Made by a program: the position numbers and the translations under genes. From Gemmatimonadaceae bacterium (lineage in GTDB: Bacteria; Gemmatimonadota; Gemmatimonadetes; Gemmatimonadales; Gemmatimonadaceae), in the NCBI GenBank assembly GCA_025928335.1, contig JAICJQ010000020.1, positions 1-36,412 on the forward strand: 36,412 nucleotides of DNA, given 5' to 3'. The notes beneath the pieces were generated by a model that did not search any database, was not told the origin of the DNA, and saw only the letters and a program-made list of their open reading frames with translations. Positions 29,779 to 36,412 of the stretch are shown here, one piece after another; positions within the stretch are counted from its first letter, which is position 1; the number at the start of each line of letters is the position of its first letter.

Positions 29779-30738
29779 TTACGGCGCGATGAGAAGCGCG
29801 ACCCAGAATCGCTCGTCGGCGTCCGTCCAGAGACGCTCGACCTCAAAGCCGGCGGCCGCGGTGACCGTCGCCAGCTGCTCGCGATCGTACTTGTACGACG
29901 ACTCCGTCCAAATCGTCTCGCCGCGCGCGAACGAGATCGCCGCTCCGCCCACTTCGACTTCGTGGGCGACGATGGCCTCGAGATGCATCTCGACGCGACC
30001 GGCGCTTTCGTTGAAGAATGCCCGATGCCGAAAACGCGAAAGGTCGAAATTCGCGTCGAGCTCACGGTTGATGCGCCGCAGGACGTTGAGGTTGAATGCG
30101 GCGGTCACGCCCTCGCGGTCGTCGTATGCCGCGTTGAGAATCGCCGGATCCTTGCGACGATCGACACCGAGGAGCAGCATGCCTCCGGGACCAACCGCTC
30201 GTCGGATGCGTCGAAGAAACGCCGCGGCTTCAGCCGGGTGGAAGTTGCCGATCGTCGACCCCGGGAAAAAGCCAAGGCGACGATCGTGGTCCGGGAGCTG
30301 CGGAAGCGACAGCGGGTGTGTGTAGTCCGCGCACAGTGGGCGAATCGCGACCTTTGGATAGTCGCCGGCGAGCTCCGACGCGACGCGGGCGAGTTGCTCG
30401 TGCGAGATGTCGATTGGCACGTACGCCGACGGTTCGCAAAGCGCGTCGAGCAGCAGCCGGATCTTCACGCCGGCCCCGCTCCCGTACTCCACCAACGCGG
30501 CACGTGGACCGACCCGCTCGCCGATCTCATTGATCGAGTGGCGGAGGATCGAGAGCTCGGTCCGCGTTAGATAATACTCATCGAGCGTGCAGATGCGCTC
30601 GAAGAGTTGGGCGCCGGCTTCGTCGTAGAAGAGCTTCGCGGGGAGCGTCTTGCGAGATGCGGTGAGGCCGCACAGCACGTCCTCGACGATCCCGTTCGCG
30701 TCGAGCTGCTGGAGGTGCGAATGGAGAGGCGCGCTCAT
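29779..30738 (-). CDS. egtD: L-histidine N(alpha)-methyltransferase (ergothioneine biosynthesis)
   Basis: 319 aa. Makes hercynine by triple N-methylation of histidine with SAM. Characteristic blocks: LPAKLFYDEAGAQLFERI (32-49), LDEYYLTRTE (52-61), LVEYGSGAGVKIRLLL (82-97; SAM loop), PIDIS, FFPGSTIGNFHP, and LLLGVDRRKD. The pattern matches the DUF2260/EgtD family at normal length. Its ATG (30738) overlaps the egtB stop by 4 bases, confirming co-translation. Some EgtD-like proteins methylate other substrates, but the pairing with EgtB makes histidine the likely target. Confidence 0.92.
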   Translation of the reverse strand: MSAPLHSHLQQLDANGIVEDVLCGLTASRKTLPAKLFYDEAGAQLFERICTLDEYYLTRTELSILRHSINEIGERVGPRAALVEYGSGAGVKIRLLLDALCEPSAYVPIDISHEQLARVASELAGDYPKVAIRPLCADYTHPLSLPQLPDHDRRLGFFPGSTIGNFHPAEAAAFLRRIRRAVGPGGMLLLGVDRRKDPAILNAAYDDREGVTAAFNLNVLRRINRELDANFDLSRFRHRAFFNESAGRVEMHLEAIVAHEVEVGGAAISFARGETIWTESSYKYDREQLATVTAAAGFEVERLWTDADERFWVALLIAP

Positions 30739-32027
30739 GCCTTGGCCGCCCCCGCCAGTCGAATGCCCATGAACTGCCACCGCGCGTCCGATGGGAAGAA
30801 ATTCCGATACGTGAGTCGCGCATGCGACTGTGGCGTCGCGCACGACGCGCCGCGCAGCACCCACTGGTCGCACATCCATTTGCCGTTGTATTCGCCGATC
30901 GCGCCGGCGGCCGGCGTATATCCCGGGTACGCCGTGTACGCGCTTGCCGTCCATTGCCAGACGTCGCCGTACAGCTGGCGCAGGTCGCCATCGCGTGCCG
31001 GCGATGATGCCGGCGCGGGATGATAGTTCTCCGATTCGACGAACGGCCCGTCGATCGGCGCGTTCGCGGCTGCGATCTCCCACTCCGGTTCAGTCGGCAG
31101 ACGCGCGCCGGCCCAGCGCGCGAAGGCATCGGCCTCGTAAAAGCTGACGTGCGTGACCGGTGCGTCGAGCTCGAGCGCGTTCTGACCGGCGAGGGTGAAC
31201 TCCGTCCACCCATCGCTCGTGCGCTCCCAGTAGATCGGCGCTTCCCAATTCGACGCGCGGACCGTCGACCAGCCATTCGACAACCAAAGCTCCGGCCGGT
31301 GATACCCGCGGTCGTCGATGAACGCGAGGTAATCGGCGTTCGTGACGAGTCGATCGGCCATACGGAATTCGTCGACGAAGACGCGATGGGCGGGGGACTC
31401 GTTATCGAACGAAAAACCCCCGCCCGCGTGTCCGATGCGATAAATGCCCGCGGGCACGGAAACCCAATCGAATCCGTCGCCCGTCGGCCGTCCTCTGTCG
31501 CTCATTGCCCGATAGACCGGGCGCAACGGGTTCGTCCAGAACACGTGCTTGATGTCGGTGAGCAGCAATTCCTGATGCTGCTGCTCGTGGTGTAGACCGA
31601 GCTCGATCACCGGCAACGCGGGATGTTCCGTATCGTTCGCGATGCGATCGATCAATCGCTGCATCGACGCATCGACATACGCGCGGTATGCGAAAACCTC
31701 GGCGACCGTGGGGCGCGTGACGAGCCCACGCTGCGCCCGACAATGTCGCTCGCCCGCTTGCACATAGTAAGAATTGAATAAAAACGCATAGCGCGGATTC
31801 AGCGTCAGGTACGACGCGTCGAACGGCGCGAGGACGAACGTCTCGAAGAACCAGCTCGTATGCGCGAGATGCCACTTCGTCGGACTCACATCGCTCATCG
31901 TGCTGACGACGTAGTCTTCCGTCTCGAGCGGCTCACACAGCTTTTCCGTCTGCCGACGAACGGCCGCGTATCGATCGACCAACCGCGCCGGGGTGAGCCG
32001 CGGGACGTGAAGTTCCGAAATGGTCAT
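30735..32027 (-). CDS. egtB: Ergothioneine biosynthesis sulfoxide synthase
   Basis: 430 aa. Non-heme iron enzyme that joins hercynine to a thiol with O2. N-terminal DinB domain with the iron-binding His of KWHLAHTSWFFE (His56) and the pair His147/His151 in HHEQQHQE; C-terminal FGE-sulfatase domain with FDWVSVPAGIYRIGH, FVDEFRMADRLVTNADYL, RLPTEPEWEIAA, LYGDVWQWTASAY and the terminal GIRLAG. The ATG at 32027 begins at MTISELHV; an upstream GTG would add 19 foreign residues. No egtA, egtC or egtE is near, so the thiol donor (cysteine or gamma-glutamylcysteine) is open. Confidence 0.92.
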   Translation of the reverse strand: MTISELHVPRLTPARLVDRYAAVRRQTEKLCEPLETEDYVVSTMSDVSPTKWHLAHTSWFFETFVLAPFDASYLTLNPRYAFLFNSYYVQAGERHCRAQRGLVTRPTVAEVFAYRAYVDASMQRLIDRIANDTEHPALPVIELGLHHEQQHQELLLTDIKHVFWTNPLRPVYRAMSDRGRPTGDGFDWVSVPAGIYRIGHAGGGFSFDNESPAHRVFVDEFRMADRLVTNADYLAFIDDRGYHRPELWLSNGWSTVRASNWEAPIYWERTSDGWTEFTLAGQNALELDAPVTHVSFYEADAFARWAGARLPTEPEWEIAAANAPIDGPFVESENYHPAPASSPARDGDLRQLYGDVWQWTASAYTAYPGYTPAAGAIGEYNGKWMCDQWVLRGASCATPQSHARLTYRNFFPSDARWQFMGIRLAGAAKA

Positions 32028-32241
32028 GTCTACACCTACGTCCGAAAACGAGTCAGCGGATTCGTGCGGCACGGCCACAGCCACGTCAAAAGTGGCAAGG
32101 TGGCGCCAAAGTTCCCGAGCGTTTGTAGCGCCGGGGGACCTAAGCTATCCCGGTGCTCTGCTCCGAGCTAGCCTCGACCTGTAACACCGCAGGGCTCAAA
32201 GCTTTCCGGGCAACCGCCATTGGCCGGCGCCCGCGGACGAC

Positions 32242-33540
32242 TCAATTGGGCAACGCTTTTCCAGTCGTCTCTACCGCAAACGGCACGATCAACAGGCCGA
32301 TCGCGAACGCGATCGCTGTGAGCGCGACGGGCGTACCGAGCGTCCCCATTCGTAGTACCATCGCGCCGAGAAGAAAGTTCACACCAGCGCCGACGAAGCG
32401 ACCCACCGATGTCGCGAAGGCAAAGGCAGTTGCGCGGACCCGCGTGTCGTATTGCTCGGGCAGCCAGAGACTGAACGCCGCGAAGCTGCCGCCGGCGAAG
32501 CCCATGAAGAAGAGGATCGTGATGAATGCGGTGAGGCCGTTCGGCAGATAAAAGGCCCAGCCGAACGCGAGCGGGATCGTTACCATCATGCCGACGAAGT
32601 AGACGGCGACGGCGCCCTTTCGTCCGATCCGCTCGGCGATTGGCGGGAGGCAGATACAGCCGAGGATCGTTCCGATCGAGAGGACGGCAGTGCCGAGCGA
32701 GACCATCTTCGCCGGCATGCCACCGGTCATCCCCGCTCGCTTGGCGAGCGTCGTGATCGCGGTCGGCTCGTACACCGCGCCGGCCCACAAGCCGATGATC
32801 GCCACGGTGAGCAGCGCCGCGTTCACAATGGTTCGCTTACGGTACTGCGGCCCGAAGATCTCGGCCAACGGATGCGCGCGTTGTGCTTCTGCTTCATGCG
32901 CCTTCCAGCGCGGCGGCTCCTGCACTTTGCGCAGCGTGAGCGCGGCGATGATGACCGGGATGAATCCGCAAAGGAACATCGCTCGCCAACCGTAGCGCGC
33001 GCCGATCGTGTAGTTCAGCGCCGCCGCCGCGAAAAAGCCGAAGTAGTAGCCGGTCTGCAAATAGCCCGCGCCCATCTTCCGACGATCCTCCGGCCACGCC
33101 TCGGCGACGTACGTTCCGGCCATCGCCCACTCTCCACCGACTCCGACTCCGGACAGAAAGCGAAAGAGTCCAAGCTGCCAAACACTCTGTGCGAAGGCGG
33201 CGAGCCCGGTGAACACGGCGTACATGAGAATCGTCGCGGCGAGCGCGCGCGTGCGACCGAAACGATCGGCGATCGGCCCCCAGAGAAACGCGCAGCCCCA
33301 CCCGGCGAGGAATACCGCGAACAGCACTGAGCCGGCGAAGCCGATGTTCGCCGGCGTCGCGGGCGTGCCGGAGCGCGGCAACAACTCGGTGAGCGCGGGG
33401 GCGAGCACCAATGCGTAGATCACCGAGTCCATGCCGTCGAGCAGCCACCCCGACCACGCCGCCCAGAAGCCGACGATCTGCGCGCGCGTCAGCTTCGTGC
33501 GCGTCACCACCCCGTCGAGCGCGACGCTCTGTGTCGTCAT
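32242..33540 (-). CDS. MFS transporter (AAHS / aromatic acid:H+ symporter type)
   Basis: 432 aa, about 12 membrane helices. SGWLLDGMDSVIYALVLAPA in helix 1 contains the conserved acidic D-x-x-D of the AAHS branch; the motif A loop is GPIADRFGRTRALA, repeated in the second half as PPIAERIGRKGAVA. The region FRFLSGVGVGGEWAMAGTYV is the helix 4-5 signature. Members import aromatic or other organic acids with H+. The ATG overlaps the acyl-CoA synthetase stop by 4 bases, so import and CoA activation are likely linked. Substrate unknown. Confidence 0.88.
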   Translation of the reverse strand: MTTQSVALDGVVTRTKLTRAQIVGFWAAWSGWLLDGMDSVIYALVLAPALTELLPRSGTPATPANIGFAGSVLFAVFLAGWGCAFLWGPIADRFGRTRALAATILMYAVFTGLAAFAQSVWQLGLFRFLSGVGVGGEWAMAGTYVAEAWPEDRRKMGAGYLQTGYYFGFFAAAALNYTIGARYGWRAMFLCGFIPVIIAALTLRKVQEPPRWKAHEAEAQRAHPLAEIFGPQYRKRTIVNAALLTVAIIGLWAGAVYEPTAITTLAKRAGMTGGMPAKMVSLGTAVLSIGTILGCICLPPIAERIGRKGAVAVYFVGMMVTIPLAFGWAFYLPNGLTAFITILFFMGFAGGSFAAFSLWLPEQYDTRVRATAFAFATSVGRFVGAGVNFLLGAMVLRMGTLGTPVALTAIAFAIGLLIVPFAVETTGKALPN

Positions 33541-35030
33541 GAGTTGACCGGTTTTTGCCAGGGTGGAAGAAGATGCTTTTGAATCTTGCCGAGTGCCGTG
33601 CGCGGCAGCGATTCGACTCGGATGAAGGCGCGAGGCACCTTGAAGGATGCGAGCTGCGAGCGACAGCTCTGCTCGATCGCACTCGTGCTCAGCGCGTCAT
33701 CGGCGACGATATACGCCACCGGCACTTCGCCGCGGACGGGATCGCTCACTCCGACGACGACCGCCTCGCGAAGGAGCGGATTTTCGAGAAGCAGCTCCTC
33801 GATCTCGCGGGGGTAGATATTGAACCCGCCGCTGATGATGAGATCACCTCGTCTACCGCGGAGGGCGTAGTAGCCGTCGGAGGCGCGCACGCCGAGGTCG
33901 CCGGTCTTGAACCAGCCGTCGTCGAACGCGTCGGCTGTCGCGTCGGGGCGGCCCCAATATCCGGAAAAGAGATGCGGCGAGCAAATCTGCACCTCGCCGA
34001 CTTGGTCGTCGCCCAGCACCACGCCCTCATCGCCGACAATACGCGCCGACACCCCGGGAAGCGGCGGCCCGACGGACCCCGCCTGGCGCTCGCCCTCGTA
34101 GGGATTACTCATGATCATCAGCGCTTCGCTCATCCCATAACGCTCGAGGATCGTATGGCCGAAGCGCCGATGAAACGCTTCGTGCACATGCGCGGGGAGC
34201 GGGGCGGAGCCCGAGACGAAGAGCCGCGCGGCGTCGCCGATCGTGCGGGCGTCATCGTCGCTCATTACAGCCGTGTCGAGCAGCCGGACGTACACGGTCG
34301 GCACGCCGAAAATGAGCGTCGGCTTGAAGTCGAGCATCACGCGCGGTGTCGTCCGCTGGTCGAACCGGTCGAGCAGTCGCATCCGGCAACCGCTGATCAA
34401 CCAGCTGTGCAGGCCGTTGCCGAGTCCGTGCACATGGAACAGCGGGAGCATAGCGAGATAGCGATCGTTCTCCGAGATCTTCCAGACCGTCGTGAGCGTG
34501 ATGGCATTCGCCGCGAGATTGTTGTGCGACAGCACCGCTCCTTTCGCGACGCCTGTCGTACCGGAGGTGTAGACGATCATCGCCGGGGCGTCGCCGTCGA
34601 GCGGAGCGATCATCCTCGCGTGCTCGCGCGTGGCCGCTGCACGTCCCAACTCGTCGACATCCCAGACGACGGTCGATTCCGGATAGGTGGCGCCGTTCTG
34701 AACGGCCGCGACGACAGCCTTGGGCTCGGCGTCTCCGACGATGTGCCGAAGCTCGCGCTCCTTGTACAGGATGTTCATCGGCACGAAGATCACGCCGAGT
34801 CGCGCGCAGGCGAGATAGAGGTCGATGAACTCGATACGGTTCGGAAGGTGAACCGCGAGCCGGTCGCCGCGCGACAGTCCACGCGACGCCAGCTCGCCGG
34901 CCATCCGGCCGGCGCGCGCGTCGAGCGCCGCGAAGGTCAGCGTGCGCACCGAAGCGCCGTCGTCGTACTGCAGCGCCTCGCGGTTGGCGCGGCCGACGAG
35001 CGAGAGATCAAACAGGCCGGTGAGATGCAC
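33537..35030 (-). CDS. Acyl-CoA synthetase (AMP-forming, ANL superfamily)
   Basis: 497 aa from the GTG at 35030. Activates a carboxylic acid with ATP and CoA. The P-loop is MIVYTSGTTGVAKGA, followed by LPLFHVHGL, GSAPLPAHV, ERYGMSEALMIMSNPY, the DDGWFKTGDLG block, the hinge region GRRGDLIISGGFNIYP, and the C-terminal catalytic Lys in RTALGKIQKHLL. Length and motifs suit malonyl-, aryl- or medium-chain acid ligases. The GTG overlaps the stop of the upstream peptidase frame by one base (TAGTG); longer frames upstream are shadows of that gene. Co-translated with an AAHS transporter downstream. Confidence 0.9.
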   Translation of the reverse strand: MHLTGLFDLSLVGRANREALQYDDGASVRTLTFAALDARAGRMAGELASRGLSRGDRLAVHLPNRIEFIDLYLACARLGVIFVPMNILYKERELRHIVGDAEPKAVVAAVQNGATYPESTVVWDVDELGRAAATREHARMIAPLDGDAPAMIVYTSGTTGVAKGAVLSHNNLAANAITLTTVWKISENDRYLAMLPLFHVHGLGNGLHSWLISGCRMRLLDRFDQRTTPRVMLDFKPTLIFGVPTVYVRLLDTAVMSDDDARTIGDAARLFVSGSAPLPAHVHEAFHRRFGHTILERYGMSEALMIMSNPYEGERQAGSVGPPLPGVSARIVGDEGVVLGDDQVGEVQICSPHLFSGYWGRPDATADAFDDGWFKTGDLGVRASDGYYALRGRRGDLIISGGFNIYPREIEELLLENPLLREAVVVGVSDPVRGEVPVAYIVADDALSTSAIEQSCRSQLASFKVPRAFIRVESLPRTALGKIQKHLLPPWQKPVNS

Positions 35031-35935
35031 TACCGGTGTTCGTCTTTGTCCATCGAAGTGAGCTTGTTCCCCTCCTTGAGCATCTTCATCGCTTCGTCGA
35101 TCGCCACTTTGAGTTCTTTGTCGAGGCCCTTGGCTTCGTCGGCCGGCGAGTTCTTCACCCACACGTCGGGCGGAATGCCGAGATTCTCGAGATCGAGACC
35201 GTAGTTGTTCGGCCTCGTCGGATCCCACGTCACGACGAGCGAGCCCGGCGTGCGAATCGTGCCGCCGTTGATCAGGCTGTAACTCCCCGTCGCGATCACC
35301 TGCGCCGACGTCGGATTGCCGACGAGCTTTCCGAGCCCGAGCTGGCGGAATCCCGCCGGTGTGACCTCGGCGTCGGAGACCGAACGGTAGTTGATCATCA
35401 TGACCTTCGGTCCGACAATCGCCTGCCGGGGCCGACGCCCCCAGGTGCGGGAGCCGTTGCGATTATTCCAGAATTGGTATGGCTGCCGCTCGAGGATATC
35501 CAGCAGCTCCTGATCGATGTTGCCACCGCCGTTGTTCCGGATGTCGACGATGATTCCCTTCTTCTGCCAGAACCGGTCGATTTCATTCTGGAAGCGCTCG
35601 AGCGACGGCTGATCCATCGCCCGAATGTGCACGTAGGCAATCTGACCGTTCGTCGCCTTGTCCACCGAGTCGCGGTTGTTCTCGACCCACCATCGGATCG
35701 AATCGCCCCGGCTGACCCCGAATTCGATGTAGTCGATCGGGCCGCCCAGGTCCTCGCGCCCGAGCAGGTAGCGGTAGAGCTCGTGTCGGCCTTCCACCGT
35801 CTCGCAGGGGTGGGAATGGCACCATCGGCGGCACTCCGGCGCCATCGCCCAGTACTGGAGGCGCCGATGGACCGACGGCCGGATCCGGATCTGGTCCAGG
35901 ACCTCGCGCAGGGGCGTCAGGACGCTGTTCATCAT
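35030..35935 (-). CDS. Chimeric frame: C-terminal part of an S41-family peptidase behind a foreign N-terminus
   Basis: 301 codons in one frame, but two unrelated proteins. From about residue 88 on it is the C-terminal part of a tricorn/C-terminal-processing S41 peptidase: AYVHIRAMDQPSLERF, IIVDIRNNGGGNIDQELLD, PKVMMINYRSVSDAEVTPAG (Ser region), GLGKLVGNPTS and LGIPPDVWVKNSP. The PDZ and beta-propeller parts expected in front are missing. Residues 1-87 are instead a methyltransferase-like N-terminus. The frame happens to stay open across the join (near 35665-35690). The C-terminal part matches this genome's gene order (it ends in TAGTG with the acyl-CoA synthetase). Read it as a truncated S41 peptidase gene, not as a natural fusion, unless read data say otherwise. 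Confidence 0.75.
   Translation of the reverse strand: MMNSVLTPLREVLDQIRIRPSVHRRLQYWAMAPECRRWCHSHPCETVEGRHELYRYLLGREDLGGPIDYIEFGVSRGDSIRWWVENNRDSVDKATNGQIAYVHIRAMDQPSLERFQNEIDRFWQKKGIIVDIRNNGGGNIDQELLDILERQPYQFWNNRNGSRTWGRRPRQAIVGPKVMMINYRSVSDAEVTPAGFRQLGLGKLVGNPTSAQVIATGSYSLINGGTIRTPGSLVVTWDPTRPNNYGLDLENLGIPPDVWVKNSPADEAKGLDKELKVAIDEAMKMLKEGNKLTSMDKDEHR
35680..35935 (-). other. N-terminal part of a TylF-like methyltransferase, probably from another organism
   Basis: Residues 1-87 of the chimeric frame. YIEFGVSRGDSIRWWVENN is the SAM-motif I of macrocin-O-methyltransferase (TylF)-like proteins, in which an EFGV-x-x-G-x-S block is followed by a substrate-specific Asp-rich section; that continuation is absent. 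The ATG at 35935 has a strong GGAGG 8 nt upstream. The stretch upstream of the join is unlike the local genes in neighbourhood and style. End position approximate. Confidence 0.65.
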
Positions 35936-36057
35936 CTCAATTCCTCCGGATGATCGGCCATTCCCTTTTATGGATCGTCATGAAGGCGCCATGGATGCCG
36001 AAGCTCGGGATGGGTGCCGCCTTGACGCCGGCGCGATGAGGGCCCACTGTGATGCCG

Positions 36058-36077
36058 GGCGGAGCACGGGCTCCGCC
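36058..36077. other. Short intergenic hairpin
   Basis: GGCGGAG / CTCCGCC stem with a 6-base loop in the gap between the divergent genes at the right end. No T tract follows. It may be a leader structure or nothing. Confidence 0.3.
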
Positions 36078-36124
36078 AGGGACCACGACGAGGCAACTGT
36101 ATGGCCCGGGAGGATGAGTGTATC

Positions 36125-36412
36125 ATGCGCGATCCGATCACGTGGAGACTCCGGTGGCTGGCTCCCCTGCTGGCGGTCATCGTCGCGTCCGGCCCGGCCC
36201 GGGCTTCCGGGCCGGCCGGGGCCGCGGTCCGCGTCACGACGCCGATGCCGCCGCCCGGCTGGGCGCTGCTGGAGCGCGGGCTGCTGCGCGCCCACGAGCG
36301 GGCCTGCGCCGAGTTCCTCGACCGGTACTTCGACGACCGGGGCTACCTCGAGTGCGTCGAGCGGTGGGGGGGCGACGACGGCCCCGACGACGCCATCGAG
36401 AACGTCAACGAC
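36125..36412 (+). CDS. Secreted protein of planctomycete type, 5' part (runs off the right edge)
   Basis: Open frame of 96 codons from the ATG at 36125 to the window end, no stop. GGGAGGA lies about 10 bases upstream. Signal peptide (RWLAPLLAVIVASGPARA, cleavage ~25). The mature start PPPGWALLERGLLRAHERAC and FLDRYFDDRGYLECVERW, then GGDDGPDDAIENVND, is reminiscent of large exported proteins of Planctomycetota that begin just this way; I recall the pattern from family knowledge, not from a search. GC content appears higher than in the rest of the window. Function unknown. It sits beyond the probable junction near 35,680. Confidence 0.6.
   Translation, partial: MRDPITWRLRWLAPLLAVIVASGPARASGPAGAAVRVTTPMPPPGWALLERGLLRAHERACAEFLDRYFDDRGYLECVERWGGDDGPDDAIENVND

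Follow-up and report, generated by a model that had tools for sequence, protein, structure and literature searches.

An open reading frame linking a methyltransferase to a tricorn-like S41 peptidase at the end of a Gemmatimonadaceae contig: very probably a chimera of two unrelated genes

Results

A single open frame composed of parts of two genes

The window, i.e. the whole stretch of DNA that was analysed (36,412 nt), constitutes contig C138 in full and belongs to a Gemmatimonadaceae draft genome, a bin of 281 contigs and 4.5 Mb that is 79% complete. Close to its right end, a frame encoding 301 aa starts with an ATG and runs uninterrupted across a point where the homology changes from one protein family to another (Table 1). 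Residues 99–258 match Peptidase_S41 in Pfam (PF03572; E 4.3e-19, 69 bits against a cut-off of 24). A scan of a genome collection with the whole 301-aa protein retrieved 11 S41 loci, which match from residue 83 or further inside at 70–91% identity; nine are labelled Gemmatimonadetes or Gemmatimonas, one Acidobacteria and one just “bacterium”. For the other end of the protein the same scan returned a single locus, L014 from an Ignavibacteria MAG, which matches residues 2–93 at 38% identity (53% over 62 columns when the methyltransferase part was compared by local tblastn). The full L014 protein scores above the cut-offs of both PF13578 (Methyltransf_24) and PF05711 (TylF), the matching region being L014 residues 139–275, and is a weak relative of a protein of solved structure, the sugar O-methyltransferase CalS11. 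The methyltransferase fragment itself matched no methyltransferase model among the Pfam and NCBIfam profiles.

As the S41 loci match the C-terminal part and the L014 methyltransferase residues 2–93, the frame is, judged by homology, two half-genes. The preliminary description had likewise read it as the N-terminus of a TylF-like methyltransferase (residues 1–87) passing without a stop into an S41 peptidase, and both the open frame and the identity of its two parts are borne out, with the methyltransferase part found to end between residues 82 and 89. It had also proposed a search with each half separately, and the best matches do differ in taxa: same-genus Gemmatimonadota for the peptidase and the Ignavibacteria MAG for the methyltransferase.

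Table 1. Features near the right end of the window.
Feature	Position	Strand	Evidence
egtB and egtD (ergothioneine genes)	29779..32084	-	TIGR03440, 574 bits; TIGR03438, 395 bits; both above NCBIfam cut-offs
Ligase gene adjoining the S41 piece	33537..~35042		68–72% orthologues in four genus mates
Fused open frame, 301 aa	35030..35935	-	ATG start, no interruption
S41 piece: tricorn-like peptidase, C-terminal ~212 residues	35030..35668	-	Pfam S41; 89–91% identity to same-genus full-length proteins
Join zone GTGGGTCGAGAACAACCGCGAC (G + WVENNRD), fits both parent genes	35669..35690	-	Codon-level comparison, 17 S41 loci and L014
TylF/Methyltransf_24-type methyltransferase, N-terminal ~82 residues	35691..35935	-	L014 homology
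Right-hand gene, uncharacterised: first 104 aa, divergent, cut by contig end	36101..36412	+	Asticcacaulis plasmid homologue

The left side and its relatives in the genus

In two members of the same genus (G001 and G004) the peptidase is encoded in one open frame of 1148 and 1239 aa, respectively, and is 89% identical over the shared part. The domains of a full-length relative (L003) are a PD40 propeller, Tricorn C1, PDZ and Peptidase_S41; Pfam detects neither propeller nor Tricorn C1 nor PDZ in the 301-aa frame. The ligase gene has orthologues in four genus mates and is followed in all four by an MFS gene (78–82%), the same order as in the window. Because the full-length peptidase and the ligase–MFS pair are kept in genus mates, gene content and order place the left side firmly in this genus, which confirms at genus level the earlier assignment of this side to the Gemmatimonadota.

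At 35030–35042 (minus strand), the TAG stop of the S41 frame and the probable start codon of the ligase gene, a GTG, seem to overlap. The adjacency of the two genes was seen only in the window; in G001 and G004 they lie on different contigs. Further to the left, egtB and egtD are adjacent, here in a Gemmatimonadota genome.

The right side and its composition

The sequence to the right of the join has few relatives in the phylum. The methyltransferase fragment was matched in just one of 199 other Gemmatimonadota genomes, a sample of the phylum, and there weakly (33%, E 3.7e-4). Relatives of the right-hand protein occur in seven of 248 other Gemmatimonadota genomes at no more than 44% identity, none of them in its own family, and no Pfam family was assigned to it. 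In the collections searched, its best relative is a hypothetical protein of an Asticcacaulis plasmid (62.7% over 59 aa). Plasmid matches for the right side come from Asticcacaulis, Sphingobium and Flammeovirga; at the DNA level the right end matched no plasmid, and the viral contigs held no relative of either the methyltransferase piece or the right-hand protein. The relative on the Asticcacaulis plasmid pASTEX01, itself above the cut-off of no Pfam family, adjoins an MFS transporter gene and lies near kdgD, a setting that suggests a role of this family in the use of sugar acids.

In a comparison that covers this one 36-kb contig, positions 35691–36412 have a GC content of 69.8% (against 64.1 ± 1.8%) and a tetranucleotide distance of 0.476 (against 0.334 ± 0.030), both values exceeding those of every window of equal length, while the S41 part (0.366) is no outlier. 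By a third-order Markov likelihood the right end is not distinguishable from the contig, and the compositional evidence is therefore not unanimous: the tetranucleotide change that had been proposed as a check is found, together with a change in GC, and is missing from the Markov score. Taken together, relatives and composition support the view that the right side is foreign to this genus, and the right-hand gene probably shares its foreign origin with the methyltransferase piece. This support does not reach as far as the planctomycete origin that the preliminary description had proposed for the right side.

The join zone

Close S41 orthologues (at least 70% identity) begin to match at residues 76–83, and the L014 match ends at residues 89–93. 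Residues 83–89 (WVENNRD) are the sole part that fits both families; they correspond to 22 nt, GTGGGTCGAGAACAACCGCGAC on the minus strand, which contain all except the last two bases of AACCGCGACTC, the stretch where the preliminary description had located bases that both families could share. In 17 peptidase loci, several of which are the same genome reached via two collections, the five residues ahead of WVENNRD read [ITV][KR]Y[EQD]E and not DSIRW as in the window. On the other side, the identity of the L014 methyltransferase, DSIRWWVENNRD, ends at the next residue, and the methyltransferase piece is cut just after its EFGVSRGDSIRW stretch. The leading G of the zone serves both genes, being the last base of a Glu codon (GAG) in the peptidase and of the Trp codon (TGG) in the methyltransferase.

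Judged on relatives of the two parents, the true parents not being among them, the zone reads GTGGGTCGAGAACAATCGTGAC in a peptidase locus (L004) and GTGGGTGGAGAACAACCGCGAT in L014, each differing from the window at 2 of 22 nt. Codon 85 is GAG (Glu) in the window as opposed to GCC (Ala) in the two genus mates with the S41 gene; GAG/Glu is present at this residue in other orthologues (L004, L006, L009 and L033). A search of the own genome for a 20-mer of the join, with up to two mismatches allowed, gave a single site, and a second copy inside the bin thus does not explain the join. A 21-mer was not found in viral contigs.

Discussion

Of several possible explanations for this frame, we favour with high confidence an assembly or sequencing-library chimera of two unrelated genes from different organisms; in all likelihood, the 301-aa fusion is an artefact. 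This reading is preferred because it accounts at once for the position of the join, the peptide shared by both families, the change in relatives as well as in composition, and the absence of the other half of each gene, and because the contig ends (at base 36412) only 722 bp past the join. The missing halves were sought in the 79%-complete bin itself: the ~923 absent N-terminal residues of the peptidase are not there as a close orthologue, the other tricorn-like S41 proteins of the bin being paralogues of ~30–34%, and the remainder of the methyltransferase is not there either. The preliminary description had also considered an assembly chimera the simplest explanation, and the evidence favours it. 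A genome carrying the same fusion, which it had named as an argument to the contrary, was found neither among 147 related genomes nor in the genome-collection scan.

The genuine Gemmatimonadota contig would extend from position 1 to about 35690 and break inside the tricorn-like S41 gene. There, at no more than 22 nt coding for WVENNRD in both genes, the assembly would have stepped into the methyltransferase gene of another organism with a higher GC content, whose DNA would make up the remaining ~720 bp of the contig. In that case the fused frame would be a by-product: the joining bases, read in one frame, would specify identical residues in both genes. With this agreement between the two genes, the frame would stay open of itself and carry no information on selection. 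Two steps of this scenario are inferences, namely that all 22 nt are present unchanged in the true S41 parent, and that the assembly graph, and not a chimeric read, was the source of the error. Full identity is unproven for the peptidase parent because of the GCC at codon 85 in the genus mates. If this species also has GCC there, the two genes would agree exactly over only ~12 nt, which is not enough for a graph join at k=21. An overlap of that length would call for a chimeric read or a real recombination, and within the chimera reading a chimeric read or library molecule would then be likelier than a graph join.

A real recombination, in which a foreign island or mobile element was joined to the chromosome within the S41 gene via microhomology and the two gene remnants came to be read as one frame, we regard as improbable. 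Gene gain is possible in the Gemmatimonadota, homologues of the right-hand protein occur sporadically in the phylum, as does one weak match to the methyltransferase, and a GCC at residue 85 in the S41 gene of this species would leave a short overlap of the kind found in illegitimate recombination. However, the contig ends just beyond the join, and the bin, although only 79% complete, contains neither of the displaced halves. The usual signs of an integration site are also lacking: the window contains no tRNA gene, and direct repeats of at least 16 nt do not occur in 33000–36412. An integrase could not be expected in so short a foreign part. Moreover, both homologies lie on the same strand and in the same frame exactly at the shared peptide; this would follow from a k-mer join but not from a random insertion. 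The more specific proposal that a recent, genuine cross-phylum recombination disrupted, in one lineage of the Gemmatimonadota, the gene for the tricorn-like peptidase and gave rise to an expressed fusion frame would be less probable still, and we give it little credence. That the frame encodes a functional fusion protein, selected as such, is hardly credible in spite of its open frame and ATG start, as the methyltransferase is cut where the Methyltransf_24/TylF-matching region starts in L014, the peptidase has no propeller, Tricorn C1 or PDZ regions, and the genomes searched hold no second case.

On the chimera reading, the locus would show clearly how a false in-frame “gene fusion” can enter a draft genome through a short coding sequence that two unrelated families have in common. 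Catalogues of fusion proteins should not include the 301-aa frame, and the final ~720 bp are unfit as evidence for gene transfer into the Gemmatimonadota.

This type of error is familiar from metagenome assembly with de Bruijn graphs, where sequence common to two species gives rise to chimeric nodes and these, if not split, to chimeric contigs (PMC8171044). The window resembles such chimeric contigs, for example those addressed by MetaVelvet-DL (PMC8171044), in having unrelated flanks around what is probably a short common sequence and in its compositional shift; the join here also lies near a contig end. It differs in that those chimeras involve similar species, whereas the organisms joined here would be distant and the common stretch would be very short, no longer than 22 nt. 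With respect to the parent families, the N-terminal ~82–89 residues align with L014 as in TylF/Methyltransf_24 methyltransferases, but the remainder is replaced by peptidase. The catalytic C-terminal part, in turn, is a close orthologue of the full-length tricorn-like S41 peptidase of the same genus, from which the window departs in that the first ~923 residues are missing from the contig.
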